A DNA stretch of 32,611 nucleotides, taken from assembly GCF_000738775.1 (NCBI RefSeq), contig NZ_JPOC01000053.1, positions 1 through 32,611 of the forward strand, given 5' to 3'. Under the pieces are notes generated by a model. The model searched no databases, was not told where the DNA came from, and saw nothing but the letters and a program-made list of their open reading frames with translations. Of this stretch, positions 13,413 to 28,778 are shown in pieces. Positions within the stretch are counted from its first letter, which is position 1. Each line of letters starts with the position of its first letter. This stretch comes from Prescottella defluvii (GTDB taxonomy: Bacteria > Actinomycetota > Actinomycetes > Mycobacteriales > Mycobacteriaceae). A program made the translations under genes and the position numbers.

Positions 13413-14655
13413 CGACTGCCACCTCTTCCCCATCGTCTACACCGGCACCTGAGTGGTTGCCGGCCATGTTCAACGGCATTGCGAGCACGTCCCCGCCCTC
13501 GACCGCAGGCAGGTTCAACTTGGCCCGCGCCTCGTTCGGCGTCATGTACGGAACGCCCGTGGCTGCACTGAGTACAGCGGCCTGTTCCTCGAACGAACCT
13601 TGCAGCTTCTCGCCAAGGTTGAACTCGACATAGACGCCCGCAGCGTCAGCGAAGCGCGGCACCAGGAACTCGTTCAGCCTGGCCTCGATCATCGCCAGAA
13701 TCGGCCCCAGAGTGTCGCCGTACAACATGCGCCGGAACTCACGAACATTCGCGTAGTTCGCGTTATCGAGCAGGCCCAACATGGTTGGGTTCACGTGGTA
13801 GACAGCGGCAACCGTTGTCAGCGCCAGCTTGGACGCCTCAACGTATTCCTCTTCCTTGGCTGAGAAGCCAACCCGCTTGAGTTCCATTCCGTCCTCAAGC
13901 ACAGGCGTACCGCCCGCACTCGAACCACGCACGCCAGACCAGACGCTAGACCACATGCGCTTGAACCGAGAACGAGCGTCATTCGACCACTGAGGCGCAT
14001 CCTTGGGGCGGGTTAGGTAAGTACCCACGCGCCCGCCACGTTCCCACAGCTGTTGCCGGAAACCCTGAGCATGTATCTGTTCCGCCAGGACCGCATTGAG
14101 CGCCTTGACCGGGCTTGATCCGATACGCGCGTCGGCAGGGTTCCAGCCGTGGAACACAAGCATGTTCTCGGCGCGCACCGCGACCGGCTCCGCGTCCTCG
14201 CTCAGCCTGACCAGATACGTGCCGACCTCGAACGCGGTTGACTCCTCAGTACCGACAACCCACCCGTTCGGCAGCGTCCGCAGCGAGAACCCGCCACCGT
14301 CTGCGGTTCGGTCCTCAACCATCACGTAAGCCACATCGAACAACGCCAGGTCAGCAACCACGCCGAACAAGAACTCGTAGCCCGTCTGAGACGCGTTCGG
14401 GCGATTGACCAGCGACGCCAACGGGTGATCCCGCAGCCGCTCACGTGAACCGTCAGCATCCCGCGTGAACGCATGTATCCCCAGCTGCGCGACATTCCGC
14501 GCCAGGAACGTAACCACCGTGCGCAAGTACGGCTGTTCCGCCCACAGCTGTTCCGGGCTGCGATACACCGCCTCGGTGCCCTCACCGACCATGACGCCCG
14601 CGTCATCGTCCAGGCTCACCGACCGCTTGGCCCCCTTGGACGTGAACAGCTTCAC
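13402..14655 (-). CDS. phage portal protein (HK97 family)
   Basis: A 417-aa portal, which forms the dodecameric ring at one capsid vertex for DNA entry. Typical features are an N-terminal clip/stem segment with LWAEQPYLRTVVTFLARNVA, SSPVKALNAVLAEQ, and the late motif NPTMLGLLDNANYANVREFRRMLYGDTLGP in the usual place for HK97-family portals. It ends in a disordered acidic tail. It starts at ATG 14655, overlapping the stop of the upstream gene by ATGA, and runs into the capsid gene, forming one tight operon. Confidence 0.92.
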   Translation of the reverse strand: MKLFTSKGAKRSVSLDDDAGVMVGEGTEAVYRSPEQLWAEQPYLRTVVTFLARNVAQLGIHAFTRDADGSRERLRDHPLASLVNRPNASQTGYEFLFGVVADLALFDVAYVMVEDRTADGGGFSLRTLPNGWVVGTEESTAFEVGTYLVRLSEDAEPVAVRAENMLVFHGWNPADARIGSSPVKALNAVLAEQIHAQGFRQQLWERGGRVGTYLTRPKDAPQWSNDARSRFKRMWSSVWSGVRGSSAGGTPVLEDGMELKRVGFSAKEEEYVEASKLALTTVAAVYHVNPTMLGLLDNANYANVREFRRMLYGDTLGPILAMIEARLNEFLVPRFADAAGVYVEFNLGEKLQGSFEEQAAVLSAATGVPYMTPNEARAKLNLPAVEGGDVLAMPLNMAGNHSGAGVDDGEEVAVDAA

Positions 14656-14999
14656 GCGTCCCCCTCAACTGCCTCAGCCACCGCCGCAACGACCGCAGCA
14701 AGACGCGCCCGTGACGCCGCCTGGTCAGCAAGCATCTGGTCACGTGCCGCAATACCGTCCCGGTACAGCCCGATTCGTTCCTCAATCGCGTCAGCCGCCC
14801 GTTCACGCCCTACGTCACCGACGTACGAATGGGCCAGCTCGAACGCAAGCGCAAAGAACAACGACTCAAGTCCGCCGTACTCCTCGAACGCCTCACGCAA
14901 TACCCCGTCATAGCGGCCCGTGTCGCCGTCCAGGTACGCAACCGCCAGTTCGCTTGCCCTGATCTGCGACTCAAGGCCAACTAGCACCTTGTCCGTCAT
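14652..14999 (-). CDS. hypothetical protein between small terminase and portal genes
   Basis: A 115-aa, mostly helical, acidic protein (MTDKVLVGLESQIRASELAV...). Both ends overlap neighbours by 4 nt (ATGA), so it is translated together with the packaging genes. No family is recognised. By position it may be a packaging or head accessory factor, but nothing in the sequence proves that. Confidence 0.7.
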   Translation of the reverse strand: MTDKVLVGLESQIRASELAVAYLDGDTGRYDGVLREAFEEYGGLESLFFALAFELAHSYVGDVGRERAADAIEERIGLYRDGIAARDQMLADQAASRARLAAVVAAVAEAVEGDA

Positions 15000-15277
15000 G
15001 CCGTCCCCTCTCCGATCCCCTGCACAGCCCGGCGCTGCCGAATCCCCGACAACGCCCCCGCAGTCACCACCTCGTCACCCACCGCCAAGTCCTTACGGCC
15101 CTGAGGCGTCAAACCAAGCGCGTTCAACAGCCGCAGGAACCCCGGCGACGGCTCACCGCCTTGCTTGTCGATCTGAGACGCCCACGACTTCGCCAACGCA
15201 ACCGCTGCACCGTCAGACGGACGCAGATGGTCAGCCGCTTCTATCGCGGCACCGACTGCCGCCCTCAATTCGCCCAT
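14996..15277 (-). CDS. small-terminase-like protein
   Basis: A 93-aa protein from ATG at 15277, with GAGG about 8 nt upstream. The N-terminal half (ELRAAVGAAIEAADHLRPSD...ALAKSWASQID) and the motif LRLLNALGLTPQGRKDL resemble the short helical small-terminase proteins of actinobacterial phages and phage-like elements. Such proteins recognise DNA for packaging, normally with a large terminase, which is absent here. It is the first gene of the packaging operon. Assignment rests on composition and position, so it is moderate. Confidence 0.5.
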   Translation of the reverse strand: MGELRAAVGAAIEAADHLRPSDGAAVALAKSWASQIDKQGGEPSPGFLRLLNALGLTPQGRKDLAVGDEVVTAGALSGIRQRRAVQGIGEGTA

Positions 15278-15293
15278 TCGGGCACCTCGTTTC

Positions 15294-15332
15294 AAGAAAA
15301 AAGTTCGGGGGGAGCGGATCACTCCCCGCCCG
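15294..15332 (-). terminator. intrinsic terminator directly before the packaging operon
   Basis: On the minus strand a GGGGAG/CTCCCC hairpin (extended outward by G-C pairs) is followed within a few nt by TTTTTT (15296-15301 region). It ends only about 18 nt before the ATG of the small-terminase-like gene. An upstream CCCCC stretch could pair with the same GGGG arm, an alternative fold that would prevent the terminator. Confidence 0.6.
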
Positions 15333-15544
15333 AAGGGGGCCAAGGATTGCACATTGCAGTGATTCCGACCGCCCCACCTACTCGTATTGCTGTCTCATTC
15401 GCTCTCTGAGCAACTTTCAGGGCTTGCCTGAGGGATTGCCTTAGGCTTACCGTCTTCAAGCAAATAGCGGTCGCTACCGCCGTAGCGTTGCCGCTTAGGT
15501 CTGATCCCCGGTTTGATTGGTGGATTCGTCCAGTCCACGCTTCC

Positions 15545-16249
15545 TCATTCCTGCCAGAGTCGCCCGCCCGCATTGCCCGATCTGGGCACGGCTTGAGGCT
15601 TTGGCTTTTCGCGCGCGAGCCAGCTTTCAAATGCCTTATCCCAGTCCTTGCGCACCCAACCGTTCTCAATGACGTAACTCTTGAAGTACGCGGCGACGGC
15701 TTCGAGGTCTAGGCATTTCTTCTGTGCTTGTTCTCGATGCTTGGCGTTGGGCTGCCAGTCGTCAGGAAGTGGTTCGGGCTTCTCGGTCCTCGCCACAGCT
15801 GTTGATGTTGTTGCAGGATCTGTTGGGGTGACACTGGTGACACCGGGCTTTGACACTGGTGACACCGGGCTAGCTGGGGCGGGTGTCATGGATGACACCG
15901 GGCTACCCGCACCGGGTGACACTGGTGACACCGGGATTTCGTGCCCTTCTGGATAGGTCAGGCGGTACTCACTGGCTATGCCGGCCTTGCCCGACTTCGC
16001 CCCTGACGCCACTTGCCCCAGCCACCCACGGGCCACGTTCTCGGCCAGGTTCCGCAACGCCTGACGCTTACTCAGGCCCGTACTAGCAACGATTCTTTCA
16101 ATGCCGGGATGGGCACCGTTGCCGTTGGCGTCCGTGTAATCCCAAACCACATAGGCGACCGATCTAACCGAACTGGGTACGTCCGACGCACCGTAGGCTT
16201 TATGCCATTCAAACTTGATGCTCAGCTTTCTTCGCCACCTTCTGACCAC
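15545..16249 (-). CDS. phage-type replication initiator (HTH + C-terminal DnaT-like region)
   Basis: About 234 aa if started at GTG 16249. The frame stays open to 16291, and the true start is unclear because the upstream gene ends at 16209. The N-terminal domain (about 10-95) carries a winged HTH of the type in phage replication proteins (HPGIERIVASTGLSKRQALRNL region). The middle is a Pro/Ser/Val/Thr linker with repeated SPVSP-like units. The C-terminal region (DDWQPNAKHREQAQ... AYFKSYVIENGW...DW..AF..WL) resembles the helicase-loader part of phage O/DnaT-like proteins. The linker DNA contains iteron-like repeats, as in lambda O. Confidence 0.65.
   Translation of the reverse strand: MVRRWRRKLSIKFEWHKAYGASDVPSSVRSVAYVVWDYTDANGNGAHPGIERIVASTGLSKRQALRNLAENVARGWLGQVASGAKSGKAGIASEYRLTYPEGHEIPVSPVSPGAGSPVSSMTPAPASPVSPVSKPGVTSVTPTDPATTSTAVARTEKPEPLPDDWQPNAKHREQAQKKCLDLEAVAAYFKSYVIENGWVRKDWDKAFESWLAREKPKPQAVPRSGNAGGRLWQE
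15829..15937. repeat. iteron-like direct repeats inside the replication gene
   Basis: Three near-identical copies of TGACACTGGTGACACCGGG occur at 15829, 15851 and 15917, and one degenerate copy ends near 15904. Spacings are about 22, 33 and 33 bp. They encode the linker of the replication protein and are candidates for its origin binding sites. Confidence 0.7.
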
Positions 16250-16427
16250 CCAGCCCACGCGCTTTTTCCTCATGCACGTCAATGGCGTCATTGAGCGTGT
16301 CGCGCAATTGGTATGCCTCAGATTCCGTCAGTTAAACCGGTGTTCCGTTGAATTCCTTATCGCGTAGCCGGAAACTTCTTCCGTCAGTGCGCTTGTTGAG
16401 GAATGCACAGAATCGTTCGTCGTTCAC
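16209..16427 (-). pseudogene. small 72-codon gene with in-frame TAA
   Basis: From GTG 16427 the frame reads NDERFCAFLNKRTDGRSF...EFNGTPV, then TAA (16332-16334), then continues in the same frame as LTESEAYQLRDTLNDAID...KKAEHQV to a stop at 16209. The part after TAA has no own start codon and looks like the standard continuation, so a GAA/CAA-to-TAA change is likely. The region after the stop overlaps the possible upstream starts of the replication gene. No function is known. Confidence 0.5.
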
Positions 16428-16476
16428 GCTATGTCTCAATTCTACGAAATGGCTTGCTCACGACAATTCACGCATG

Positions 16477-16731
16477 TCAGCGCCCTTTGAAGCCGGGGCA
16501 CGCGCGTTCTTCGTACCTGCGCACCATCTCGACCTCGCAGGCTGCCAGTGACTCGCGGTCGTACAGCCAGCCCTTAGACGTTCTGTGCGCCTTGACCTCG
16601 CCCGCGTACCGCCAACGCCTCAGGGTGCTTGCGCCGCGCTGTACGTACCGCAACGCCTGATCCTCGTTGAGCCATCGAGGGCGTCTCAGGTCAGGCGGCA
16701 ACAGGTAGTCGGGTTGGTCCTGCCACCTCAC
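16477..16731 (-). CDS. HTH protein, excisionase/MerR-like
   Basis: An 84-aa basic protein with a helix-turn-helix of the excisionase (HTH_17/MerR-like) type: WLNEDQALRYVQRGASTLRRW, then a wing with GWLYDRESLAACE. Such small proteins act as recombination directionality factors or regulators of integrative elements. It overlaps the upstream small gene by 4 nt (ATGA), so the pair is coupled. Which role it has cannot be told. Confidence 0.7.
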   Translation of the reverse strand: MRWQDQPDYLLPPDLRRPRWLNEDQALRYVQRGASTLRRWRYAGEVKAHRTSKGWLYDRESLAACEVEMVRRYEERACPGFKGR

Positions 16732-16934
16732 GCAGCAGCGACCAGCAACGCAGAGATACGGTCCCTCTGTTCCGGCGCGAGAGGCGGGGCCTGATCCACG
16801 ATCTTCCGCACGAACTCGGCGATGCGAGACTCGGCAAGCTCACGCTGCCTGTCGATCAGGTCTGACTTGTTCCATCGCTTTGCCGCAGCAGCTCGTCCGA
16901 CTGCACGACGAAGTTCCGGCGATTCTCCGGCCAT
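16728..16934 (-). CDS. small helical hypothetical protein
   Basis: 68 aa from ATG 16934, with TAAGGA 6 nt upstream. The N-terminus AGESPELRRAVGRAAAAKRWNKS is basic and the rest is amphipathic helix. It is the first gene of the control operon, right after the repeat region. The family is unknown; a DNA- or protein-binding role is only a guess. Confidence 0.65.
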   Translation of the reverse strand: MAGESPELRRAVGRAAAAKRWNKSDLIDRQRELAESRIAEFVRKIVDQAPPLAPEQRDRISALLVAAA

Positions 16935-16965
16935 GTTCAATCCTTAAGGTATGGAAATGAGGAAA

Positions 16966-16992
16966 GCCCCAACCCGACTAGCGGGTTGAGGC
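16966..16992 (-). terminator. hairpin upstream of control operon
   Basis: GCCCCAACCCG (16966-16976) pairs with CGGGTTGAGGC (16982-16992) with one mismatch. On the minus strand it is followed by TTTCCTC. It lies about 30 nt before the first control gene, so it could end integrase transcripts or act as an attenuator. Confidence 0.5.
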
Positions 16993-17006
16993 TTGGCGAC
17001 TGCGTG

Positions 17007-17161
17007 ATGCCGTGGCATTGACTACAAACAACGTTACTCACGCCCGTGCCACGGGCTAAGTGACTCAGGACACAGTTCCCGTAGGTAACTGCTTTATGCC
17101 GTGGCATTCACTAACAACAACGCTACTCAGGCCCGTGCCAGATCTAAGTGACTCAGGACTC
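17007..17161. repeat. two imperfect direct repeats of about 66 bp
   Basis: 17007-17073 and 17096-17161 are near copies. Each begins with the dyad ATGCCGTGGCAT and contains an ACTCA(C/G)GCCCGTGCCA block and TAAGTGACTCAGGAC. They lie in the only long gap of the control region, upstream of the minus-strand control operon, and are likely operator or origin sequences. Confidence 0.75.
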
Positions 17162-17179
17162 ACCGAGCGCGAGTGCGTC

Positions 17180-17213
17180 TGTTCCCTCTCCCTGTTCCCT
17201 TTCCCTGTTCCCT
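17180..17213. repeat. three 13-bp iterons in a pyrimidine tract
   Basis: TGTTCCCT occurs at 17180, 17193 and 17206, an exact 13-bp period. The stretch is almost pure pyrimidine on the plus strand. It lies beside the 66-bp repeats, near the integrase 3' end. Confidence 0.65.
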
Positions 17214-17285
17214 TTCCTACATGTCATTCGCTGCAAAGTGCGGCAAAATACATGCGCAATGTTCAGTCCGTGCAACAGCATCCAC

Positions 17286-18723
17286 TCACACAGCGACCTC
17301 GGCAACCTTCCAATCGACCTGCACACGTTCGACCAGGAGACCGCCGCCGGGTGCTCGCTGACCACTGCCCACAGGCAGCACAGTAACCGTCATGAGATGG
17401 TCGATGACCTTGCCTTTTAGGTCTGGCGATAGGCCAGCCCAAACCTCACCAACCCGTTCGCCACTGAGGGCTAGATTCGCCACAGGCGAAGTCTCACGCG
17501 CCGCCGCAAGCTGAGCGTCAATGCGCCCCAGGCGTTGTTGCAACTCTGCACTCCCGCGCGACAACTGCGAGCCGTCGATAGTGCCAGCGGCGAACAGGCC
17601 CGCGAGTTCATCCTTGCGCGCCTGCAAGCCGTCACGCTCAACTTGCAGCGCTGCCAGGTCGGGGCCGTCGCCTGACTCAAGCACCACCTTTGCGTCTTCA
17701 CGCGACAGCCGTTCGATCACCAACGCATCAACGAACTCGTCAAGCGCGTCCTTGCGCTGAGACAGGTGAGGGCTGGCCGAACACGAATACGCCTTGTAGG
17801 AGGTTTCCTTTGTCCGCCCCATCGTGAGGACACGCATGGTCGCGCTGCACTTGCCGCAACGGTAGACACCGCTCCCCTGGTGAGCGCGCTCGTAGGAAAC
17901 GCTCGTCCGTCGAGTCGGGTCGGCAATCACAGCCCGCAGCGCGTGCAAGGTGTCTACGTCAAAGATTGCCGGCCAAAGCGCCGGGCCAACGATCTTGCCG
18001 CCTTGCTCAATCAGTCCCGCGTTCCGTGCCCGCGTGAGCACCTTCCGAACACTCGTTGCAGTCCATGTCTCGGTGCCCCGCGCTGTCTTGATTCCTGCGC
18101 CCATCCATGCCAACGCTATCGACCTCAGGGATACGCCACTGAGCAGCTGTGCCGCTGCCTCACGGATAGCGTCAGCCTCGTCGGGCACCAGGTCCATTCC
18201 GCCGTCTGTGTACCCGAACGGTCGGGGTCCACCACGGAACTTTCCGGCAAGGGCCTGTTGCTGCTTGGCGCTCCGCACCCGCTCGGCCGACCGCTCTACC
18301 TCGTACCGAGCGATGCCAGCGAACATGGTTGCGTTCAGTCGCCCCGTTGGCGTTGACAGGTCGATCTTGCCCGCCTTGACCGTCCGAATGGTGACCTCAT
18401 GGTCCTCACACACCTGCACCAGTTCCGACAGGTCAGGAATAGACCGATACAGGCGGTCGGTGTGCCAGCTCAGCAATCCGCCAGTAGTTCCCGTGGCGAG
18501 TTCAGCCAGCATCGCCCGGTACTGAGGGCGCGGCTTCCGCCCGTACGCAGACGTGTCGTTGTCCACGAACACGCGCACCACGCCCCACCCAAGGTCTGCC
18601 GCGAGCTTCCTGCAATCGGCTTCCTGGCGTTCAACGCCCAGACCTTCACCAAGTCGGTCCTGCGAGATTCGGCAGTAGATAACAGCGTCCCCGGGTAAAC
18701 AGTCTATCTTGACTTTCCGTCAC
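17286..18723 (-). pseudogene. serine integrase of element 1, apparent frameshift near start
   Basis: A large serine recombinase of about 470 aa. The resolvase domain reads AVIYCRISQDRLGEGLGVERQ, with the nucleophilic serine in CRIS, then VDNDTSAY and SWHTDRLYRS. A recombinase domain, a zinc ribbon (CGKC...C) and a coiled-coil segment follow. In this frame there is no ATG, GTG or TTG between an in-frame TGA in the att core (18720-18722) and the catalytic serine. The first usable start (18581) would remove the serine. A GTG in the att core (18721-18723) is one base out of frame; deleting one G from the GGGG run at 18690-18693 would give an N-terminus of MTESQDRLFTRDAVIYCRIS. I read this as a frameshift or sequence error. 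Confidence 0.7.
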
Positions 18724-18727
18724 GACG
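18719..18727. repeat. attachment core, right end of element 1
   Basis: GTCACGACG is identical to 9739-9747. Element 1 lies to the left; the host DUF4244 middle piece lies to the right. Confidence 0.85.
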
Positions 18728-18774
18728 GTGTAGAGAATGGCGCCGAAGGCCGCGGCGGCGATGGTGCCGATGGC
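18728..18774 (-). pseudogene. DUF4244 pilin-like gene, middle piece
   Basis: On the minus strand this 47-bp stretch plus the flanking cores reads EYAIGTIAAAAFGAILYTVV, the hydrophobic core of DUF4244 proteins. It is host DNA stranded between the two integrase genes. With the pieces at 28771-28854 and 9675-9747 it forms one 67-codon frame. It shows that both elements entered the same gene at different sites. Confidence 0.93.
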
Positions 18775-18782
18775 GTACTCGG
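18775..18782. repeat. attachment core, left end of element 2
   Basis: GTACTCGG is identical to 28771-28778. The host middle piece lies to the left and element 2 begins to the right. Confidence 0.85.
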
Positions 18783-18800: not shown

Positions 18801-20492
18801 ATGAGTACGCCGCACAATCCGACACGAGCACTGATTGTCGTTCGACTGTCGCGCGTCACCGACGCGACCACTTCACCCGAGCGCCAGCTGGATGCATGTC
18901 GCGCGCTGTGCGAAAAGCGCGGATACGAGGTTGTCGGCATCGCCAAGGACTTGGACGTATCCGCCGGCCTCACGACCCCGTTCCAGCGCCCGCAACTCGG
19001 GGGCTGGCTCGAGAATCGGTTTCATGAGTTCGACGTGATCGTCGTCTACCGGATGGATCGCATCGTTCGGCGGTTGCTCGACCTGGCCGATCTAATCCGA
19101 TGGGGACAGACTCACTCGGTCTCGCTAGTGAGCGCCACCGAGTCGTTCCTGGACCTGACGTCACCGTTTGGGGACATCATCGCGTTGTTGGTGGCGAAGG
19201 TAGCCGAGCTGGAGCTGGAGGCGATCAGCTCTCGAATCGCATCCGCGTACACCCACAATCGGCAGCTCGGGAAATGGACCGGAGGTGCCCAGCTTCCCTG
19301 GGGGTACCTTCCTCGCCAGACCGACGATGGTTGGCGGTTGTTCCCCGATCCCGAAGCCGTCCAAGTGATCCACGAGGTTGCCGAGCGCGTCCTATCCGGT
19401 GAGCCGCTACGAGCAATCGCTCACGACTTGAACGAACGCAAGGTTCCGACGGCCAAGGACCGCATGAACGCTCACCTGGGCCGCGATCTGAAGGGCTATC
19501 AGTGGGCCTCGCAGGGGCTCAAGCGGTCGTTGACGCAGCCGACGATGCTTGGGTACGTGACGGTGCGTGAACCGAAGCGGAACGCGAACGGCGAGATCCT
19601 GCGGGATGCACGCGGACGAAAGATGTTCGAGGCCGAGGACGTTCTACGAGGCCCTGACGGCTCGCCTATCCAGCGGGCCGAGCCGATCCTGACCAAGCAT
19701 GTGTTCGACCAGCTCGGCGTGGAGCTGGCAGGCCGCGAGAACCGGAAGGAGCCGACCAAGCGGTCGACAGCACTGCTTCTTCAAGTCATCTTCTGCGGAG
19801 TCTGTGGGCGGCCGTGTTACCGACTGAAGGGTGGCCAGGGCCGTCGGCCCCGCTATCGGTGCTCGTCAGCGCAATACAAGTCCACCTGCGGCAACGGCTC
19901 AGTCGTGATGGAGGAACTCGACAATCTAGTCGAATCGTCGGTTCTTGCACTCATGGGTGATTCCGGGCGGCTGCAACGGATTTGGGATGCGGGCGAGGAC
20001 AACGCAGCCGAGCTAGCAGACCTGGACACCACCCTCGCCGACCTTGCCGGCCAGGTAGGGCGAGGACCATACAGAGCAGGTACGCCGCAGCGTGCGGCAC
20101 TCGATGCGAACATCGAGGCGCTCGACAAGCGCCGAGAGGAGCTGGCTGCAGCAACCACCAGGCCCGCTGGCTGGACCTGGCAGCCGACCGGCGAAACGTT
20201 CCGCGACTGGTGGGAGTCTCTGGACCTCACCGAACAGAACGTCTATCTCCGCACGATGGGCGTCAAGGTCACGTTCGAGAAGCGCGAAGAGCTGCAGGTT
20301 CATCTGGAGCTGGGCGAGCTGCGGAAGATGGCCGAGGAGGTCAAGACTGCCGGAATAATCGAGACGATCACCGAGAGGTTCTCCACGATGGCCGAGCAGG
20401 GCATCCAGGGAATGGAGATCTTCCACGACAAGGCGGTTGTCGTCATGAAGACGGGCGAGCGGTTCGAGATCCCGCGAGGAGAGGCCGAGTAG
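18801..20492 (+). CDS. large serine integrase of element 2
   Basis: A 563-aa phage-type serine recombinase, expected to join attP and attB through a 5'-phosphoserine. The catalytic domain is at about 8-150, with S17 in VVRLSRVTD, the arginine-rich YRMDRIVRR and a long E helix. The recombinase domain follows (about 170-300), then a zinc ribbon (CGVCGRPC, then two further cysteines about 30-40 residues on) and a coiled-coil segment (about 400-440). The length is normal and all key residues are present. The ATG at 18801 has GGAG upstream and lies only 18 nt from the att core. In the integrated state its promoter must therefore lie in host or element 1 DNA; in the circle the right end at 28.7 kb would be upstream. 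Confidence 0.95.
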   Translation: MSTPHNPTRALIVVRLSRVTDATTSPERQLDACRALCEKRGYEVVGIAKDLDVSAGLTTPFQRPQLGGWLENRFHEFDVIVVYRMDRIVRRLLDLADLIRWGQTHSVSLVSATESFLDLTSPFGDIIALLVAKVAELELEAISSRIASAYTHNRQLGKWTGGAQLPWGYLPRQTDDGWRLFPDPEAVQVIHEVAERVLSGEPLRAIAHDLNERKVPTAKDRMNAHLGRDLKGYQWASQGLKRSLTQPTMLGYVTVREPKRNANGEILRDARGRKMFEAEDVLRGPDGSPIQRAEPILTKHVFDQLGVELAGRENRKEPTKRSTALLLQVIFCGVCGRPCYRLKGGQGRRPRYRCSSAQYKSTCGNGSVVMEELDNLVESSVLALMGDSGRLQRIWDAGEDNAAELADLDTTLADLAGQVGRGPYRAGTPQRAALDANIEALDKRREELAAATTRPAGWTWQPTGETFRDWWESLDLTEQNVYLRTMGVKVTFEKREELQVHLELGELRKMAEEVKTAGIIETITERFSTMAEQGIQGMEIFHDKAVVVMKTGERFEIPRGEAE

Positions 20493-20569
20493 TGACCGGG
20501 CACCGGGGTCGGTCAAAAGCAGGCAGGCCCCGGCACCCTCGGAACCGAGGACCGTTCCGCTGCGTCTGA
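20492..20569 (+). CDS. possible 25-aa basic peptide
   Basis: A GTG overlapping the integrase stop opens a frame TGHRGRSKAGRPRHPRNRGP and ends in CV. It is very basic. The start overlap suggests coupling, but the frame is too short to be sure. Confidence 0.25.
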   Translation: MTGHRGRSKAGRPRHPRNRGPFRCV

Positions 20570-20575
20570 GTCGGT

Positions 20576-20671
20576 ATGGGCGACGAACGAGAAGACTTCA
20601 TACTGTGGGAGTTGGAGATCCTGCGAGACCGCTGGAGGTCCCAGGAGGACCCAGAGAGTTGGATCCCGTAA
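20576..20671 (+). CDS. possible 31-aa acidic peptide
   Basis: ATG at 20576 encodes GDEREDFILWELEILRDRW plus a short tail, a charged amphipathic helix. It lies between the integrase and a hairpin terminator at 20674, which supports a real 3' end. No family is recognised. Confidence 0.35.
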   Translation: MGDEREDFILWELEILRDRWRSQEDPESWIP

Positions 20672-20673
20672 AG

Positions 20674-20694
20674 GAGCCGCAAGTCCTGCGGCTC
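20674..20694 (+). terminator. hairpin terminator after integrase unit
   Basis: GAGCCGCA (20674-20681) pairs perfectly with TGCGGCTC (20687-20694), followed by an AT-rich stretch. It is also the first of the long hairpin series. Confidence 0.6.
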
Positions 20695-20770
20695 ACAATT
20701 GTTGTGGACGCCCATTAATTGGGTGGAGCCGACCCTTGTGCAATCCCTATTTCCCCAGCCTTAATCCCTT

Positions 20771-21633
20771 CCGGCAATTCCGAATTGGCGGCCATCCGTT
20801 TATTGCATCCGGTAATTGCCCCTCGGGCCGGCACCCGAATTAGTCGGACCGCTATTACTCCACCCCGATTGGCCGGCTCTTGTCCCGCCGACCCGGCGGG
20901 AGTACCCTCGAATCAGTCCGCCGGATCGGGCGGACATGTGGTCGTGTCCTCAATCTGAGCGTCGCCATTGTGGCCCCCCAGGAGCCACGGAGAGCGACTA
21001 ACCCACCATGGCATGGATGGTTGGGTGGGTACGCACCTTAAGGCCGTCAGCGTGGACGCTAGAGGCCCGCATCAAAGTGCATGCTGGTCAAGCATGGTTT
21101 TTGCTGCCCTACGCGGGCGCGCGCATCAGAGGATATCTTTGATCTAGTCCTGCAGCTGCAGGAAGATTGAGTGAGGGAACCCCCTTTAGGGGGTTCCCGA
21201 ACTAGGGAACTAGGGGATTCTCCTTAAGAGAATCCCTATCTAGATATATTATTAGGAGCCCCTTTGAAGGGGCTCCAATAACCATTCTTTAATGGTTGAT
21301 AATAACCCCCCGAAGGGGGTTCTCAGCGGCACCTGAGGGTGCCATTTGGAGCGCCAACAATGGCGCATCTGGAGGGTCCAGAATGACTCCTGGGAGGAGC
21401 CATAAATGGCTCTAGAGCAACTCCTCTGCCATTCAAAGAATGGCGAATACGACACCTTCGGTGCGCTTTGTTTTGGTGTCTACCATCTGCCTACTCGGCC
21501 TCGCCAACCCTGGGCCCCCATCCGTGGTTGAGGGGGCCGGGCTGGCTCCTGAGCCTCATACGGCAGATGCCAGCCACAGCCCCAGGTTACAGATCGGTAA
21601 CAGGCACCTGGATGCGGGAGAGAGGCCCGCATC
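20771..21633. repeat. tandem array of about 28 different hairpins
   Basis: A gene-free region packed with short inverted repeats one after another, each with its own sequence. The best have 6-10 perfect pairs and loops of 3-7 nt: 20884-20900, 20916-20935, 21175-21198 (10 bp, TTTA loop), 21214-21236 (9 bp), 21255-21276 (9 bp, TTGA), 21280-21297, 21304-21321 (CGAA), 21328-21343 (TGAG), 21351-21366 (ACAA), 21368-21382, 21397-21412 (TAAA), 21428-21444, 21513-21538, 21586-21601 and 21611-21633 (8 bp). Gaps between neighbours in 21149-21444 are mostly 0-15 nt. No coding potential is seen. It could be a large structured RNA or a DNA structure; not a known repeat family to me. Confidence 0.85.
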
Positions 21634-21669
21634 TAGCCGTGAGTTCCGACACACATCCTGAGGAGAGGC

Positions 21670-22188
21670 ATGAACACCAACATCATCGGCCGAGTCGAGA
21701 CCTCGGCATCCGGCATCGAGTACGTCCGCCCGCTCAGCACGGCGGACGCCAAGCTGGTGCCGAACAAGGTCGACAAGTGGCGACGCGAGAACCCGAACCA
21801 CGTGGTCAGGCAAGAGGTGGAATCGACCGGCGGGGCCTGGGTCCAGTTCTGGGGATTCCGCGTCTACTACGGCCCGTGCGCCGACTGCGACGGGCTCGTC
21901 CACACCCGCCGGAAGATCTCGCACAAGAAGAACGGAAGCACCGACACCGGTCGGTGGCCGAAGTACTGCACCGACTGCAGCGAGAAGCGGCACGCGGCAC
22001 ACAACGCAGCCGCAGCTGAGCGGATGCGGAACCTGCGGAACCTGCGGAAGAGTCGGAGAGAGAACCTGCTGGCACAAGGCGTCACCCCTCGGCAGCCGGG
22101 TAGGCCGAAGGGATCGTGGAGCACCCCCGCCAGCGAGCCGTGTGGCTCCTGGATCAGGACCGTCCCCAATATGAGTTACGTCACTTAG
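21670..22188 (+). CDS. zinc-ribbon, AT-hook-like DNA-binding protein
   Basis: A 172-aa protein, ATG at 21670 with GAGGAGAGG upstream. Two CxxC knuckles, CADC (about 74-77) and CTDC (about 100-103), suggest a zinc ribbon. A basic Arg-rich helix (about 107-130) and RQPGRPKGS, an AT-hook-like motif, follow. It is the only mid-sized early gene of element 2 and lies between two hairpin clusters. A regulator or replication factor is possible but unproven; the family is not recognised. Confidence 0.7.
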   Translation: MNTNIIGRVETSASGIEYVRPLSTADAKLVPNKVDKWRRENPNHVVRQEVESTGGAWVQFWGFRVYYGPCADCDGLVHTRRKISHKKNGSTDTGRWPKYCTDCSEKRHAAHNAAAAERMRNLRNLRKSRRENLLAQGVTPRQPGRPKGSWSTPASEPCGSWIRTVPNMSYVT

Positions 22189-22224
22189 AGGACTGAAACT
22201 GTGTTCCGTATTTCTACTGAAGAT

Positions 22225-22252
22225 TTGAAAGGGGAAAGACATCCCTTATGAA
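22225..22252 (+). promoter_or_regulatory. sigma-70-like promoter before hairpin cluster
   Basis: TTGAAA (22225-22230), 16 bp, then TATGAA (22247-22252). It points to a start near 22259, directly before a series of hairpins that ends in an intrinsic terminator. Confidence 0.5.
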
Positions 22253-22258
22253 CGTGCG

Positions 22259-22487
22259 AGCTTGAGCGCCGGTGGGGTCGGTGCTCGTTCGCATCCGACG
22301 AGTCCCCAGCTCGTCGGAGGTCGGTCGGTGTTGCTCTCTTCTCCGCCGACCGCCTGAACTTCCCGAGGTTGCCTGACCTCGGTAGGCCGCTGCTTCATCA
22401 GCGGATAAGGGACATGGCCTGTCCCGACTCCTAGTGAGAAGTAAGAGCCCCCGGTCTGTCTCGTCGGACAGCAGACCGGGGGTTTTT
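22259..22487 (+). ncRNA. candidate structured ncRNA, about 230 nt
   Basis: Between the promoter-like pair and a strong terminator lie seven consecutive helices: 22264-22286 (8 bp, one G-U), 22294-22318 (9 bp), 22322-22352 (7 bp), 22363-22382 (7 bp), 22387-22404 (6 bp), 22409-22425 (6 bp) and the terminator stem 22448-22482 (11 bp). No open frame with a ribosome binding site is present. It matches no RNA family I know. It is not a tRNA, as no T-arm or acceptor stem can be formed. Confidence 0.6.
22448..22487 (+). terminator. Rho-independent terminator
   Basis: CCCCCGGTCTG (22448-22458) pairs with CAGACCGGGGG (22472-22482), followed by TTTTT. It ends the candidate ncRNA. Confidence 0.9.
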
Positions 22488-22530
22488 CTCGGCCCCTACC
22501 TGATAGCCCTACCCCGAAAGGAGGCCCGCC

Positions 22531-22683
22531 ATGCGGACCTGTCGATCCGGTCAACACCATATCCACGGCCCCGCGGACCTCCGCCGCGATGGCCGGTGCA
22601 TCCGCTGCAGCCGCGCCACACAGCGCGCGTACCGAGTCCGGTGCCGAGATGCACTGCGGACACTGCAGGCGCTTGCCGAATAG
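22531..22683 (+). CDS. 50-aa Cys/His zinc-finger-like protein
   Basis: ATG at 22531 has a strong ribosome binding site, AAAGGAGG, 9 nt upstream. The product has C4...H9/H10/H12 and CIRC (about 25-28), then a basic helix (SRATQRAYRVRCRDALR). This C-x-H, CxxC plus basic-helix layout is common in tiny actinophage proteins of unknown function. It is likely to bind zinc and nucleic acid. Confidence 0.7.
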   Translation: MRTCRSGQHHIHGPADLRRDGRCIRCSRATQRAYRVRCRDALRTLQALAE

Positions 22684-22741
22684 GCCGAGTGCCGGCCAGC
22701 CAAACACCGCCTGAGATCCACGGAGACGGACGAGTACCGCC

Positions 22742-22842
22742 ACCTCCAGAGTGGAGGTACCCCCAAGATCCCGAGGGCTCAGAAGCCCTCACAGCGGCAC
22801 GATGCCGCACGCACCCACGAGGCCACGACCCCACGTCGTGGC
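22742..22842. repeat. cluster of four consecutive hairpins
   Basis: 22742-22758 (7 bp, GAG loop), 22773-22790 (7 bp, CAGA loop), 22794-22808 (6 bp, CGA loop) and 22822-22842 (8 bp, CCCAC loop). All are perfect and of unrelated sequence, in a 188-bp gap between two small genes. Confidence 0.8.
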
Positions 22843-22871
22843 TTGTCGCATTTCCAGAGGAGAGAACACGC

Positions 22872-23015
22872 ATGAACGCACCGACCGAGACAACCGCAGA
22901 CGCTGTCGAGTACCGAGGCCCGCATCGGGTCTGGAACGTCGGCCCCGAGGCCGTCGTCACCCTCACTGGCCATCCGTTCGATGGCCTGCAGATCACCCAT
23001 TGGTCGGTGGACTGA
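22872..23015 (+). CDS. 47-aa hypothetical protein
   Basis: ATG at 22872 with GAGGAGAG upstream. The second half (PHRVWNVGPEAVVTLTGHPFDG) looks like a small beta fold. It overlaps the next start by TGATG. No family is recognised. Confidence 0.6.
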   Translation: MNAPTETTADAVEYRGPHRVWNVGPEAVVTLTGHPFDGLQITHWSVD

Positions 23016-23300: not shown

Positions 23301-23756
23301 ATGCAAGAAACACAGACCGCTGTTCCCGGCCCTGAGAGCCACGCTGATGAGGTTTCTACCGATTCGAGTATCTCGGGTACCCCTGACACCGATGGCGGTG
23401 CTCAGCGCACCAGCAAAGAAGCCCGGTACCGAGTCGAGCGGAACCAGGCCCGCGAGGAGCTGACCGCTGCCCAGGCTCGCATCGAGCGGATGCAGCGAGC
23501 CGAGGTCGAGCGACTGGCTGCGGACGCAGGCCTGGCACATGCGTCCGACGTGTTCACCCTCAGCGGGAACGAGCCGGTCGACTACCTCGACGACGACGGC
23601 AACGTGGACCCGGAGAAGGTCGCGGCGGATGTCGCCGCCGTCCTAGCCGAGCGTCCCGGCCTGCGGAAAAACGTCCCCGCGTTCGATCCCTCGCAGGGCA
23701 CCGGAGGCACCAAGCCGAAGTCGGCCGCCCCGACGTGGGGCGCACTGTTCCAGTGA
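23301..23756 (+). CDS. capsid scaffolding-like protein
   Basis: A 151-aa acidic protein with GGAGAG upstream. It has a disordered N-terminus, a coiled-coil segment (about 35-75: ARYRVERNQAREELTAAQAR), VDYLDDDGNVDPEKVAADVAAVL (about 93-115) and a Pro/Gly/Lys C-terminus ending WGALFQ. Length, layout and position directly before the capsid gene match the scaffolding proteins of siphophages infecting actinobacteria. It would guide assembly of the shell from the capsid protein and be removed later. Confidence 0.75.
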   Translation: MQETQTAVPGPESHADEVSTDSSISGTPDTDGGAQRTSKEARYRVERNQAREELTAAQARIERMQRAEVERLAADAGLAHASDVFTLSGNEPVDYLDDDGNVDPEKVAADVAAVLAERPGLRKNVPAFDPSQGTGGTKPKSAAPTWGALFQ

Positions 23757-23909: not shown

Positions 23910-24737
23910 ATGGCAGTTCTGAACAACAACCTCGCCAACGCCTTCACCCCGGAGGACTACGGCAAGCTGATCGACACCGAGGTCGACGCGAAGTCTGTGG
24001 CCTTCCAGGCCGCAACCGTCGTCAACACCGACAAGCACCAGGTTCGTTTCCCGGTGCTGCTCTCGGATCCCGAGACCGGCTGGTACGCCGAGAACACCCC
24101 GATCACCCTGGTCGACCCGGAGACGAACGAGATCGTCGTGATCCCGTCCAAGGTTGCGGGTCTGACCCAGGTCTCGAATGAGGCTGTCGACGACACCGAT
24201 CCGGCGGTTGCCGCGATCATCGGCCAGGCGCTGGCTCGTGACATCGGCAAGAAGATCGATGCCGCGTTCTTCGGCAACACCGTCACCAACGGCCCGTCGG
24301 GCCTGCTCTCGGTCTCGGGTGTCCAGATGGTCGACACCGGAGCTGGTTGGACCACGCTCGATTACGTCCACGACGCGAAGTCTCAGGCGATGGCCCACGG
24401 TGCCGACCTGACCCACATCGTCCTGGCCCCGGACGTGGCTCTGGCGCTGTCCAAGGCCAAGACCGGCACCGGCTCGAACCAGGGCCTGCTCGAGACCGTC
24501 GACGACGGAATCAAGCTCGCTGGCCTGATCGCTCTCGTCTCGCCTGCGGTCACCCCCGGCAACGCTTGGGCTCTGGATTCCTCGCAGGTCATGACCGTCC
24601 GCCGCAAGGGCACCACGGTCAGCCAGTCGAAGGATGCCGCGTTCGGTTCGGATGCAACCCAGATCCGCGCCGTCTCTCGAGTCGGATTCGGTTACGCGAA
24701 TCCGGCGGGCATCGTCCGGCTCTACGACGCTGCCTGA
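23910..24737 (+). CDS. HK97-type major capsid protein
   Basis: A 275-aa capsid protein, ATG at 23910 with AGGAGG upstream. Features of the HK97 fold are a short N-arm, the E-loop region (VRFPVLLSDPETGWYAENTPI), the spine helix (AVAAIIGQALARDIGKKIDAAFFG) and P-domain strands. It ends GFGYANPAGIVRLYDAA. The length is normal for capsid proteins that use a separate scaffold. It is unrelated at sequence level to the protease-capsid fusion of element 1. Confidence 0.93.
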   Translation: MAVLNNNLANAFTPEDYGKLIDTEVDAKSVAFQAATVVNTDKHQVRFPVLLSDPETGWYAENTPITLVDPETNEIVVIPSKVAGLTQVSNEAVDDTDPAVAAIIGQALARDIGKKIDAAFFGNTVTNGPSGLLSVSGVQMVDTGAGWTTLDYVHDAKSQAMAHGADLTHIVLAPDVALALSKAKTGTGSNQGLLETVDDGIKLAGLIALVSPAVTPGNAWALDSSQVMTVRRKGTTVSQSKDAAFGSDATQIRAVSRVGFGYANPAGIVRLYDAA

Positions 24738-25024: not shown

Positions 25025-25201
25025 CTACTCCTCGAACGCGGCGAGTAGTCCGCCGTCCCCGATCACGGGGATGTCCTGGATCGAGAGGGCCTCGCCCAGC
25101 TCCTGGCTCGGCTCGCCGAGTACCTCTGCAAAGAACGCGTCTAGGCCGTCGAGGGCCTGACCGCTGGTGTCTGTTGTCTGCACCAGCACATGGTCACACA
25201 C
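25025..25201 (-). CDS. small acidic hypothetical protein
   Basis: A minus-strand frame of 54-58 aa (GTG at 25201 or 25189). The product QTTDTSGQALDGLDAFFAEV...EEALSIQDIPVIGDGGLLAAFEE-like tail is acidic and protein-like. It is the only minus-strand candidate in the structural part of element 2. No strong ribosome binding site is seen. Confidence is limited. Confidence 0.4.
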   Translation of the reverse strand: MCDHVLVQTTDTSGQALDGLDAFFAEVLGEPSQELGEALSIQDIPVIGDGGLLAAFEE

Positions 25202-25210
25202 ACGCCAGTG

Positions 25211-25349
25211 CCCGAGCCTCGCTCGGGCTCGGCCTGGCCCCTCGGCTGGCCCCTCGGCCTGGCCGAGGGGCCTGGTGCTGAGGCCCGAGGCTGTGCCTCG
25301 CCCTCGCCCTGGTGGTGCCTCAGGTGCCCTCCGAGGGCGCATGCACCTG
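25211..25349. repeat. cluster of five hairpins
   Basis: 25211-25227 (7 bp, CTC loop), 25248-25272 (10 bp, CCTGG loop), 25286-25300 (6 bp, TGT loop), and 25321-25349, an outer 7-bp stem enclosing 25326-25338 (5 bp, CCG loop). This is the fourth such cluster in element 2, in the gap before the small-terminase gene. Confidence 0.75.
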
Positions 25350-25630
25350 TGGATCAGTCGCAAGATTCAAGAATAATCCCAGGTCAGCGTAGGTTTCTGA
25401 CCTCTCCGAATCGAGGGGTCACCTACCCCCACCCCGGTTACCCCCCCCACCACGGGTCTGACCGGGTGGTAATGCGCCTGGCATATCCGATGCCGTGGCA
25501 TCCAGCTGATTTATCCGACGCTCTCGCGATGCCGAGCCGCTCCGCCAGCGATTTTTCTGGCACCGAATTTCCCCTGACCTGCACGAACGGCCCTCCGCGG
25601 GCCTCTCAAACGACCCATAAAGGAGGCCTG
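25350..25630 (+). promoter_or_regulatory. leader of the small-terminase operon with shared dyad
   Basis: A 280-bp gene-free stretch. It contains ATGCCGTGGCAT (25490-25501), the same 12-mer found twice in the control region of element 1, and a related half-site just upstream (ATGCGCCTGGCAT at 25472-25484 region). A C-rich tract lies at 25425-25450. It may hold a promoter, an operator or a packaging start site. Confidence 0.45.
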
Positions 25631-26002
25631 ATGGCCGAGAAACCAGAGATTCCCAGAGCCCCAAAGGGCCTTTTAGCCCGTGGAAAGCAGCTCTGGCGCG
25701 AGCTGCACGAGGTCTACGACTTCGCAGACGCTCCCGAACGGAGGGCCATCCTCGAGGAGGCCTGCCGGACCGCTGACGTGGTCAAACGGCTGCAGGCAGT
25801 AGTCGACGCAGCCGACGATCTCCGCGTACGAGGCTCGCAGGGGCAGCCGGTGGCCATGCCCGAGCTGCAGGAGCTGCGGCAGTACCGGGCGCAGATGGCG
25901 CAGCTACTCAAGGCGCTGTCGTGTCCCGACGACGAGGAGACCCTGTCTCGGTCCGAGCTGGGCAAGCTCGGCGCTGCAGCTCGCTGGAAGCCGGGTGCCT
26001 GA
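25631..26002 (+). CDS. small terminase subunit (P27-like)
   Basis: A 123-aa protein with a strong AAAGGAGG ribosome binding site. It begins with the typical motif PKGLLARGKQLWRELHEVYDF, followed by LEEACRTADVVKRLQAVV, a GQPVAMPELQELRQYRAQMAQLL segment and a short disordered tail. This is the usual pattern of P27-type small terminases of actinophages. It would select DNA for packaging with a large terminase supplied in trans. The stop overlaps the next start (TGATG). Confidence 0.8.
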   Translation: MAEKPEIPRAPKGLLARGKQLWRELHEVYDFADAPERRAILEEACRTADVVKRLQAVVDAADDLRVRGSQGQPVAMPELQELRQYRAQMAQLLKALSCPDDEETLSRSELGKLGAAARWKPGA

Positions 26003-26253
26003 TGGGACGACCGAAGCGACACAACCGCACCCGGTCGGCCTCGAGCCCCGAGGCTCTGGCTGCCCTCCTGCCGGACGATCTCCGGTCCCTGCAGGGTCTG
26101 GGTACCCCCAGCGACTACCAGGCACTGAGAGGCCACGTCGTCGACTGGCTCAACCACGCCGCACCAGGTCAGGGCCAGGTTCTGACCTCTCCCGTGATGG
26201 ATGCAGCCGGTATGTCGGCCGCTGAGTTCTACCGAAAGGCACTCACCCAATGA
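26002..26253 (+). CDS. 83-aa hypothetical protein in packaging operon
   Basis: A basic, disordered N-terminus (GRPKRHNRTRSASSPE) is followed by a helical domain (DYQALRGHVVDWLNH...MSAAEFYRKALTQ). It overlaps both neighbours by 1-4 nt, so it is cotranslated with the small terminase and connector. The family is not recognised. Confidence 0.65.
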   Translation: MGRPKRHNRTRSASSPEALAALLPDDLRSLQGLGTPSDYQALRGHVVDWLNHAAPGQGQVLTSPVMDAAGMSAAEFYRKALTQ

Positions 26254-26651
26254 CGTACGCGACATCCGCCGACGTAACCACGCTGTGGGCGAAGGAGCCT
26301 GAGCCTGAGGTCATCACGCTCATCGATCGCCGGCTCGAACAGGTCGAACGCATGATCGTTCGCCGGATCCCTGACCTGGCCGACCGAATCGCGGCTGGAG
26401 ACATCGACAAGGCCGATGTGGTCGACATCGAGGCCGAGGCAGTGTTGCGGGTCGTCCGCAACCCAGAGGGGTACACGTCGGAAACCGACGGCGGGTACTC
26501 GTACCAGTTCAACGGCGAGGCATCCTCGGGCAAGCTCGAGATCCTCCCCGAGGAGTGGCAGACGCTCGGGATTCGACCGAGCAAGGTCTTTTCCATCGTC
26601 CCCAACCTCGTTGCACCCGTCCGAGGTCCGTCGTTCGGCTCCGGGGGCTAG
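26250..26651 (+). CDS. head-tail connector protein (Gp19/Gp15/Gp42-like)
   Basis: A 133-aa protein. The N-terminal helix bundle (YATSADVTTLWAK...VITLIDRRLEQVERMIVRR) and the motif VVRNPEGYTSETDGGYSYQF are characteristic of the Gp19/Gp15/Gp42 family of adaptor proteins that sit under the portal. It would join the head to a tail that neither element encodes. It starts within the previous stop (ATGA). Confidence 0.8.
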   Translation: MTYATSADVTTLWAKEPEPEVITLIDRRLEQVERMIVRRIPDLADRIAAGDIDKADVVDIEAEAVLRVVRNPEGYTSETDGGYSYQFNGEASSGKLEILPEEWQTLGIRPSKVFSIVPNLVAPVRGPSFGSGG

Positions 26652-27172: not shown

Positions 27173-28378
27173 TCAGGCCGGAGTTCCTTCCGGCTTGATC
27201 TTTAGGTTTTCGACCGCCGCGATGATCTCAAGCACGGCCTGATACCGCTGTGTCGGGTCTGAATGGGAGCACTTCTGGATGATCTTGCTGAGCGGATCGG
27301 TGCCCTGTAGGAGTTGCTGGGTGCCTTTGAAGATGTACGACAGGACGAATCCGACCACGTAGATGTCATTGATTGGCCGAAAATCCTTGAACGCGTCGAG
27401 TGTGGGATCCACAATCGTTCCCCGGATCTCGGTCTCCACTCTCGTGAAGTCGGAATCGCGTGGTTTCGCCAGGCCGAAATCTGAGAGCTTGACCGTGACC
27501 GCCCGGCTGTCGTACTCGTGGAGCAGGACATTCTTCAGGCTCAGGTCCCGATGGCAGATGCCACTCCTGTGCAGGTAGTTAAGTCCGAAGAGGAACTGAA
27601 GGGCGATCCTTCGCCGGAAGTCGAAGTTGAGACTGGGCTGGTTATTTCGGCGCTTGATGTACTGCTCGAGCGTGCTCTCGCAGAACTCCATTGTGTAGGA
27701 GTTCTCCTCATCGTTGTACCGGTAGACCTTGAGGACGTACGGGAAGTCGAGATCCTTCATGATCTCGTACTCACGACGGAACCGTTCGATGTCCCGCTCG
27801 TCTGCCCCTCGCTTCAGCTTCTTCCTGGCGATCGTCAGGTCGTAGTTCGGATCCACAAACTTGTGGACGATCGCGTAGGCGCCTTCGCCCACGACGGTGA
27901 GATCGACCTTGGAGTGATCGGCTAGTTCCAGGGCGGTGTCGGACAGCCCGAACACCGGGTCGTACTTCTCCACCAGCACGGGCGTGAATCCTTCGGGGAT
28001 CGGACTTCCGCCGCTCGCGAGTAGCCACCCCTTGGAACCGTCCAGAACCCGCTGATACTCCGGTGCGATTGTGAGGGACTTTCCAGCCCTCTCCAACGCG
28101 GTGTTCAACTCGCGCACTTCGTTAATCAGATCAAGCAGTGAGCGACTGTTGTCTGCGTTGAAGTGCCCCGGCTCCCCATTGCGAGCCTTGGTGTTCATCC
28201 AATCGAACTCGCTGTCGAGACGCTCGTGGATCGAAGCGAATGCGTGTTTTAGCGGATGATCCCCGTTCGCGAAACGATGCTGGTCGGAGAGGTACAACTC
28301 AAGATAGTCGGGATGGGTTAGCTCGTGGTTGTATTGTCTAAGGACCCGCTCTAGACGTCGCTCCCCTGGTTTAGTCAC
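27173..28378 (-). CDS. Ser/Thr protein kinase, probable cargo
   Basis: 401 aa, GTG at 28378. An N-terminal region of about 155 residues has no recognised domain. It is followed by a Hanks-type kinase domain: glycine loop GEGAYAIV (164-171), lysine K186 in IARKKLK, catalytic loop HRDLSLKN (276-283) and metal-binding DFG (300-302). There is no transmembrane helix or PASTA domain, unlike the usual actinobacterial PknB types. It lies at the element end on the opposite strand to the structural genes, where phage elements often carry defence or fitness genes. Some such kinases (Stk2-type) abort phage infection, but the target here is unknown. Composition is less GC-rich than the host. Confidence 0.88.
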   Translation of the reverse strand: MTKPGERRLERVLRQYNHELTHPDYLELYLSDQHRFANGDHPLKHAFASIHERLDSEFDWMNTKARNGEPGHFNADNSRSLLDLINEVRELNTALERAGKSLTIAPEYQRVLDGSKGWLLASGGSPIPEGFTPVLVEKYDPVFGLSDTALELADHSKVDLTVVGEGAYAIVHKFVDPNYDLTIARKKLKRGADERDIERFRREYEIMKDLDFPYVLKVYRYNDEENSYTMEFCESTLEQYIKRRNNQPSLNFDFRRRIALQFLFGLNYLHRSGICHRDLSLKNVLLHEYDSRAVTVKLSDFGLAKPRDSDFTRVETEIRGTIVDPTLDAFKDFRPINDIYVVGFVLSYIFKGTQQLLQGTDPLSKIIQKCSHSDPTQRYQAVLEIIAAVENLKIKPEGTPA

Positions 28379-28770
28379 GTCTGCATCTTGTCATCACCGA
28401 TCCGTTTTCAAGCGATCGGCATGACGCAGGTCAGGGCATTAACGTCGAGCCCCCTTTTGGTGGCCGCTGGCCCAGCCTTACGGACGCCCTTCGGGCGGCT
28501 AGACCATTGGCCCTCGCTTGTCCCCCTAGCCCTGCGGGCTTGTCCCATTGCGACCCACGGACCTAGCCCCTCACCGTGTCAGGCCAGCACGAGTAGCCCC
28601 GCCCTGGAGTAGGACGCGGCTGGGCTGGACTCCGATGGAGGTGCGCACCCCTCGCACCGAAGTGCCGCCCCGCGAGCTGGACGGACTGTGCTACTCGCGC
28701 CCCGTTGGTTATCGTCGGACTGAGGAGAGGAACGACGACCAAGCCCAGGGGTGTAAAACGCAGCCTCTGA
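28379..28770. other. right end of element 2, gene-free
   Basis: No convincing gene. Several small hairpins are present: 28398-28419 (CCGATC/GATCGG), a CGCCC/GGGCG stem near 28487-28499, an AGCCC/GGGCT stem near 28527-28539 and a GCAC/GTGC stem near 28650-28661. In the circular form this stretch would lie directly upstream of the integrase gene and is the likely site of its promoter. Confidence 0.5.
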
Positions 28771-28778
28771 GTACTCGG
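28771..28778. repeat. attachment core, right end of element 2
   Basis: GTACTCGG is identical to 18775-18782. Element 2 lies to the left; DUF4244 codons for STAEY lie to the right on the minus strand. Confidence 0.85.

Follow-up and report, generated by a model that had tools for sequence, protein, structure and literature searches.

Large, heavily folded RNA candidates such as GOLLD, ROOL, and OLE are one kind of element with which a hairpin-rich non-coding stretch can be compared, and GOLLD and ROOL are known from phages. The put RNA of phage HK022 is said to be a folded leader RNA near a terminator. Among phage satellites, PLE has a long untranslated RNA region between its gene clusters, the IIR transcript, which the passages of PMC7567579 that describe it define by the inverted repeats at its flanks and by its antisense matches with leaders, and not by a row of hairpins. 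Among actinobacterial phages, L5 and D29 have an untranslated Pleft leader of about 500 nt, and the section of PMC5712189 on this leader states that about 90% of its transcripts are believed to terminate upstream of the genes. For actinobacteria, little is known about how satellites sense a helper and turn on the genes for their capsid, and the literature that we covered, with most subscription journals outside its scope, included no title on hairpin arrays or on RNAs like the one reported here in actinobacterial satellites.

In this study, we analyzed a 32,611-nt stretch of Prescottella defluvii DNA (the window) containing a row of short hairpins (the array) and, about 650 nt downstream, a conserved structured RNA designated R1. 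Structured non-coding RNA regions of phage satellites are a known kind of element, of which the array and R1 would be a variant; together, the two resemble a structured leader RNA, which may control the capsid genes. The array resembles the PLE IIR transcript in its place between gene clusters and the Pleft leader in its actinobacterial phage setting. It is set apart from the former by description, its own transcription being presumed, and it differs from GOLLD, ROOL, and OLE in being a row of simple local hairpins.

Results

The array was located in an approximately 10-kb capsid-encoding phage satellite at about 18.75–28.77 kb of the window, which agreed with the phage-like origin expected in the original prediction, made from the sequence of the window without knowledge of the satellite context or of R1. 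In the empty integration site of a related genome (G007, locus L132), window positions 9747 and 28771 were just 47 nt apart, and the gap matched 18719–18780; therefore, approximately 19 kb are inserted as two tandem elements meeting at 18719–18780, of which the satellite with the array is the right-hand one. This left junction matched the empty sites of relatives (94% in G007, 84% in G001), and the right junction was placed approximately at 28760–28771, the DNA from about 28771 being host chromosome in 14 of the 14 genus genomes searched. An identical copy of the satellite was present in IMG/VR (L045).

The array lay between a serine integrase gene (18801–20492, plus strand; PF00239, PF07508, and PF13408; phrog_95) and the gene for a 172-aa basic protein with a CxxC...CxxC motif (21670–22188, plus strand), which was 55–83% identical in four other satellites and matched no Pfam or PHROGs family. 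Further downstream on the plus strand were a 50-aa gene of unknown function (22531–22683; phrog_27003), which is the first after the terminator described below, and genes for a scaffolding protein (23301–23756; phrog_4708 and others), the major capsid protein (23910–24737; PF05065; phrog_10), a protein whose C-terminal half has a small-terminase domain (25190–26002; phrog_1496), and a head-tail adaptor (26250–26651; PF09355; phrog_137). The satellite thus had the integrase and the capsid and connector genes of its own (scaffold, capsid, small terminase, and adaptor) that characterize a capsid-forming PICI (cf-PICI). The cf-PICI gene list, as given in PMC10690885, also has portal, head protease, large terminase, and HNH genes; none of these was found among the satellite ORFs scanned, which were part of all its ORFs. 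The nearest named elements were the approximately 11-kb satellites of Mycolicibacterium aichiense (Anya, JSForest2, and others; OR387110-121), which share its capsid family (43% identity) and also have the scaffold, the small terminase, the adaptor, and R1, whereas their integrase is on the other strand, they carry an O-like initiator gene, and no significant array precedes their R1. O-like initiator genes with internal inverted repeats occurred in relatives and were not detected in the window's satellite. Such repeats, similar to one another, were at 5774–5873 in L002, 11527–11624 in L040, and 7881–7986 in L087, and may be compared with the lambda iterons inside O.

A conserved small ORF of 31 aa (20576–20671, plus strand; 74–76% identical in L038, L011, and L012) stopped 2 nt before the first hairpin. 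The DNA at 20492–20655, just after the integrase stop codon, was conserved among satellites despite quite differing integrases (76–84% in L039, with an integrase identity of 31%), and a 28-nt piece of it recurred elsewhere in L011 and L009.

With a perfect hairpin defined by a stem of at least 6 bp and a loop of 3–8 nt, the hairpin-rich non-coding stretch at 20674–21633 contained 16 hairpins covering 301 of 960 nt; a looser count with stems of at least 5 bp gave 20 covering 363 of 960 nt. The original prediction of about 29 hairpins occupying nearly every position was therefore too high. The density was uneven and was high only in a core at 21140–21460, where 11 perfect hairpins covered 201 of 321 nt. 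The conserved stretch from the core to the 172-aa ORF (21461–21669, plus strand) had few hairpins, and its linkers were 88 and 77% identical in the relatives G010 and G118, respectively.

The region between the two genes (20493–21669) had 17 perfect hairpins with 122 stem bp versus 12.5 expected, and the core alone had 79 stem bp versus 3.5 expected; none of 200 shuffles was as high in either case. The fold z-scores of 20674–21633 were −7.8 on the plus strand and −8.5 on the minus strand (0 of 20 shuffles as good on each), and those of the core were −10.5 with DNA parameters and −8.6 (plus) and −10.1 (minus) with RNA parameters (0 of 100 shuffles each). The run of hairpins is real and well above chance, and the claim of a dense run of differing short perfect hairpins, for which folding against shuffled sequence had been suggested as a check, was borne out. 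The stems were nearly, not entirely, all different as had been claimed: AACCCCC/GGGGGTT was common to the hairpins at 21175–21198 and 21304–21321, and the predicted plus-strand fold cross-paired their arms.

We considered several known classes of element for the array. A CRISPR array was rejected from the hairpin list since the stems are unlike and are not near-identical direct repeats, and ordinary terminators were rejected since a U-rich tail (at least five T in 9 nt) followed 1 of the 16 hairpins on the plus strand and none on the minus strand; both exclusions had been anticipated. A lambda-type iteron origin was also rejected, as the stems are unlike, the array is non-coding, and no O-like initiator gene was detected in the satellite. 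The stretch had been described as gene-free; four ORFs of 61–79 aa were compared with six loci by tblastn, and none was convincing as a gene. In three of them, the aligned part was interrupted by stops in one or both of two relatives. The remaining one (20816–21001, 61 aa) had an aligned part free of stops, and it reads as non-coding because its protein identity (59 and 40%) was below the DNA identity (77–79%).

The Rfam library includes GOLLD and ROOL. In a search of the whole window, a tRNA alone reached the gathering score; 20400–22900 searched down to E 5 gave sub-threshold matches only; and six relatives gave only SRP RNA and tRNA, in one locus. No Rfam match was thus found for the array, a search that had been proposed as a check. 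A promoter scan listed 3 promoter-like sites in 9 kb versus 1.1 expected, with one per strand inside the array and none standing out. Among 87 hairpins of 11 regions, −10-like boxes were near five on the plus strand and four on the minus strand.

DNA homologues of the array were absent from the phage and plasmid collections. Among 401 genomes of the family, eight matched the stretch; G010, G118, and the window's own genome shared the array, and the others had only the stretch just after the integrase in common. The array DNA was 79% identical in G010 and 78% in G118, and the part matching the core had nine hairpins (64 bp) and five hairpins (40 bp), respectively; over the whole regions, there were 83 versus 10.7 expected stem bp and 80 versus 10.1. 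The G118 integrase was just 28–32% identical to that of the window, which indicated that array and integrase are separable. As judged by eye, 5 of the 11 core hairpins stayed paired in both relatives, and the rest shifted, weakened, or vanished; the hairpin at 21214–21236 was kept by changes on both sides of a pair in G010 and by matching deletions in its two arms in G118. Among the three sequences, core identity was 82–87% in stems, 69–71% in loops, and 77% in linkers, and the array (77–81%) was about as conserved as the coding genes (71–88%). Compensatory changes, which had been proposed as a check, were not significant: with three sequences only, 2 of 79 pairs had them, a number reached by 139 of 500 shuffles.

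Dense arrays of unrelated stems, 19- to 9-fold over shuffles, were found in five other satellites (L012, L046, L040, L038, and L087), after the integrase or before the gene for a 172-aa-type protein, that is, in the same place or nearby. These regions and that of the window were picked after hairpin scans, whereas those of L011, L001, L002, L050, L055, L056, L092, and L097 were picked by position. In L040, L038, and L087 the array led, by eye, straight into R1. L012 and L046 had an array but gave no match with R1 when E values up to 1 were allowed, and minus-strand ORFs followed the L046 array. Conversely, in L011, L001, and L002 the array upstream of R1 was not significant (the observed value was reached by 63, 28, and 26 of 200 shuffles), and L050, L055, L056, and L097 had a 4.2- to 6.0-fold excess, barely over the general excess of the satellites. 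At 13 loci with an R1 match, the upstream hairpin excess was reached by 0 of 200 shuffles in 10 and was not so in 3. No loop or stem motif was common to the arrays, the 87 hairpins of 11 regions having 79 different loop contexts.

When inverted repeats in the 11 regions were sorted by the length of their centers, those of 3–6 nt numbered 61 versus 5.7 expected (approximately 11-fold) and those of 1–2 nt were in approximately 4-fold excess, whereas centers of 0 nt (4 versus 2.4), 7–10 nt (11 versus 6.2), and 11–24 nt (26 versus 19.0) were near chance; in this count, the observed repeats were made non-redundant and the expected ones were not. The regions came from 11 of the 16 loci that had one, with the non-significant L011, L001, and L002 and also L092 and L097 left out. 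The preference for centers of 3–6 nt, not 0, suggested that single-strand hairpins and not DNA dyads are selected: such a peak is expected from single-strand folding and not from two-fold symmetric DNA sites that bind dimeric proteins. The unrelated stems of distant satellites and this loop-length signal support the earlier proposal that selection acts on self-complementarity; its second half, that sequence is not selected, was not upheld in close relatives, where sequence was conserved too.

Stem mismatches in the arrays (arm 3) comprised six G.T and six A.C, with no asymmetry. Outside the arrays, the satellites had 34 G.T versus 12 A.C on the coding strand, and such an excess is a signature of coding-strand RNA structure. 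The mismatch count covered 22 loci, leaving out L090, which is nearly identical to L046, L048, which is contained in L051, L044, L047, and remote capsid relatives. Because G.T equaled A.C and both strands folded about equally well, neither the strand nor the RNA nature of the array was established. In 18 loci, perfect hairpins in satellite genes exceeded those in synonymous shuffles, which keep protein and codon usage fixed, by 1.6- to 4.9-fold, and those in host ORFs by 1.28-fold; the array is thus an extreme case of a tendency general to these elements. The corresponding values for phages were 0.95 for lambda, 0.79 for phiC31, 2.35 for Gordonia phage Nedarya (L106), 1.39 for Giles, 1.62 for D29, and 1.12 for Che8.

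R1 (22291–22425, plus strand) was defined by a covariation model and was present in other satellites. The model was placed in 10 of the 10 satellites given; in this 10-row alignment, which was fitted to the model, 97% of cells were paired and 19 of 43 pairs had double changes, and an unfitted 7-row MAFFT alignment gave 18 of 73 pairs. The 10-row recount dropped G053 (false) and L055 and L097 (doubtful), with which 31 of 43 pairs had double changes. The covariation score was 0.331 versus 0.125 and was reached by 0 of 500 shuffles, and slid structures gave one to five pairs. As far as the alignments indicate, R1 is a conserved structured RNA with compensatory changes above controls; the covariation check, proposed for the array, was thus passed by R1. 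A model built from seven sequences matched Anya, JSForest2, L050, L097, and L055, and weakly L056 (E 0.0069), in each case upstream of the capsid genes and in the same orientation. Of 401 genomes, eight matched and six of these were satellite carriers; the matches in G053 and G171 were taken as false, as no satellite proteins were within 19 kb. Blastn of R1 in the phage collection gave no match, and it was evidently too weak, because the model does find R1 in Anya and JSForest2. In six loci of five phages, the model found nothing at E values up to 1, and R1 had no match in Rfam; we regard it as a candidate new RNA family. R1 resembles the put RNA as a folded RNA close to a terminator that could act in cis on RNA polymerase, a likeness in putative function. 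The D29 leader was rejected as a hairpin array, as the right end of D29 had 12 bp versus 10.2 expected and no R1 match.

R1 was followed by an intrinsic terminator (22448–22489, plus strand) with an 11-bp stem and TTTTTCT, which was read from the sequence and the hairpin listing and paired in the alignment; a consensus terminator scan did not list it because its loop exceeds the maximum length set in that scan. The start of the next gene is 41 nt downstream, at 22531. By eye, in 12 of 13 loci, the first or the second GC hairpin downstream of R1 had a T-rich tail, the exception being L097.

Discussion

From the features computed here, namely the hairpins and their excess, the loop-length signature, the recurrent position of the arrays, the covariation of R1, the terminator, and the order of the genes, we infer, tentatively and at somewhat less than even confidence, that the array forms the structured 5' segment of a long untranslated leader running into an attenuator for the structural operon. 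Rightward transcripts would begin between the integrase gene and the 172-aa gene, and the array would fold during transcription into small, stable hairpins in a row, shielding the long untranslated RNA from nucleases and from the loading of Rho. The transcripts would then run through the 172-aa gene into R1 and the terminator, acting together as an attenuator, and read-through, perhaps triggered by a helper phage, would let the downstream genes, including that for the capsid, be expressed. Such read-through would be needed because only 41 nt separate the terminator from the next start codon, which leaves little room for a promoter before the 22531 gene and favors the attenuator. That the array runs directly into R1 in L040, L038, and L087 supports the two as one unit. 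Against the leader, we counted that no promoter stands out, that three satellites have R1 without a clear array and two an array without R1, that array covariation is not significant, that G.T and A.C are equal, and that both strands fold alike.

These last points bear on other explanations. Strand-symmetric pairing, with the best z-score obtained with DNA parameters, would suit a DNA element used single-stranded, such as an origin or a site of lagging-strand initiation or protein loading, whose hairpins form on the exposed strand; the window's satellite, lacking a detected O-like initiator gene, would need another origin. We nevertheless consider this unlikely, as L040, L038, and L087 carry both an O-like gene and an array, and no replication protein lies beside the array among the ORFs scanned. 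Rather unlikely, too, is a separate large non-coding RNA acting in trans as a decoy, scaffold, or ornate multimer with the hairpins as its body. The array and R1 of L087 and L040 would, by eye, make one RNA ending at a terminator, and abundant non-coding transcripts are known in PLE satellites and in phages L5 and D29, according to the parts of PMC7567579 and PMC5712189 that treat them; however, such an RNA had no Rfam match and would have no common loop or stem motif, and the 172-aa ORF separates the array from R1 in the window.

The position downstream of the integrase gene could also point to a cluster-type transcription terminator insulating this gene from the operon, since hairpin clusters without U-tails have been proposed as terminators in PMC8355165. 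That study puts 98% of correctly identified sites at 80 bases or less from the stop codon, with two-hairpin clusters the commonest, whereas the dense core starts approximately 650 nt past the integrase stop and 470 nt past the 31-aa ORF and has 11 hairpins, and the 3' part of the array is conserved up to the next gene; we therefore find this improbable. Even less probable is a mutational by-product, in which template switching or quasi-palindrome correction perfects inverted repeats without selection. The unusual perfection of the arrays, with no G.U preference, and the hairpin excess of the satellite genes over synonymous shuffles and host ORFs would fit it, whereas outside the arrays the excess of G.U suggests that coding-strand RNA is under selection, and the dense arrays occur at a preferred place and are about as conserved as coding genes. 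A mechanism of the template-switch type has reportedly been proposed for RNA hairpins.

The leader running into an attenuator remains our preferred reading. A more specific and rather doubtful form of it is a two-part RNA device of actinobacterial capsid-encoding satellites, in which a fast-evolving row of hairpins, kept in structure and largely not in sequence, would be a nuclease- and Rho-proof leader rod feeding R1, and R1 would sense the helper phage and gate the capsid operon. If true, it would be a rare case of selection keeping local hairpin density and not any one sequence. A covarying RNA before the capsid operon, with an upstream hairpin row rebuilt from unrelated sequence in different satellites, offers a direct experimental target.

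Some neighboring features were also recorded. Imperfect direct repeats with CATATA-like boxes before hairpins were seen by eye at 9300–9580 of L038 and 9800–10300 of L040, and are possibly tandem promoters or operators. The left tandem element (9747–18719) carries, on the minus strand, genes for a portal (13402–14655), a fused head protease-capsid (11703–13433), an O-like replication protein (15545–16291), and a serine integrase (17286–18581); inside it, a plus-strand RelA/SpoT-domain gene (10427–11620) weakly matched the candidate defense family PDC-S33. Near the right end of the satellite, a serine/threonine kinase gene (27173–28378, minus strand) matched the defense kinases mad6 and Stk2.
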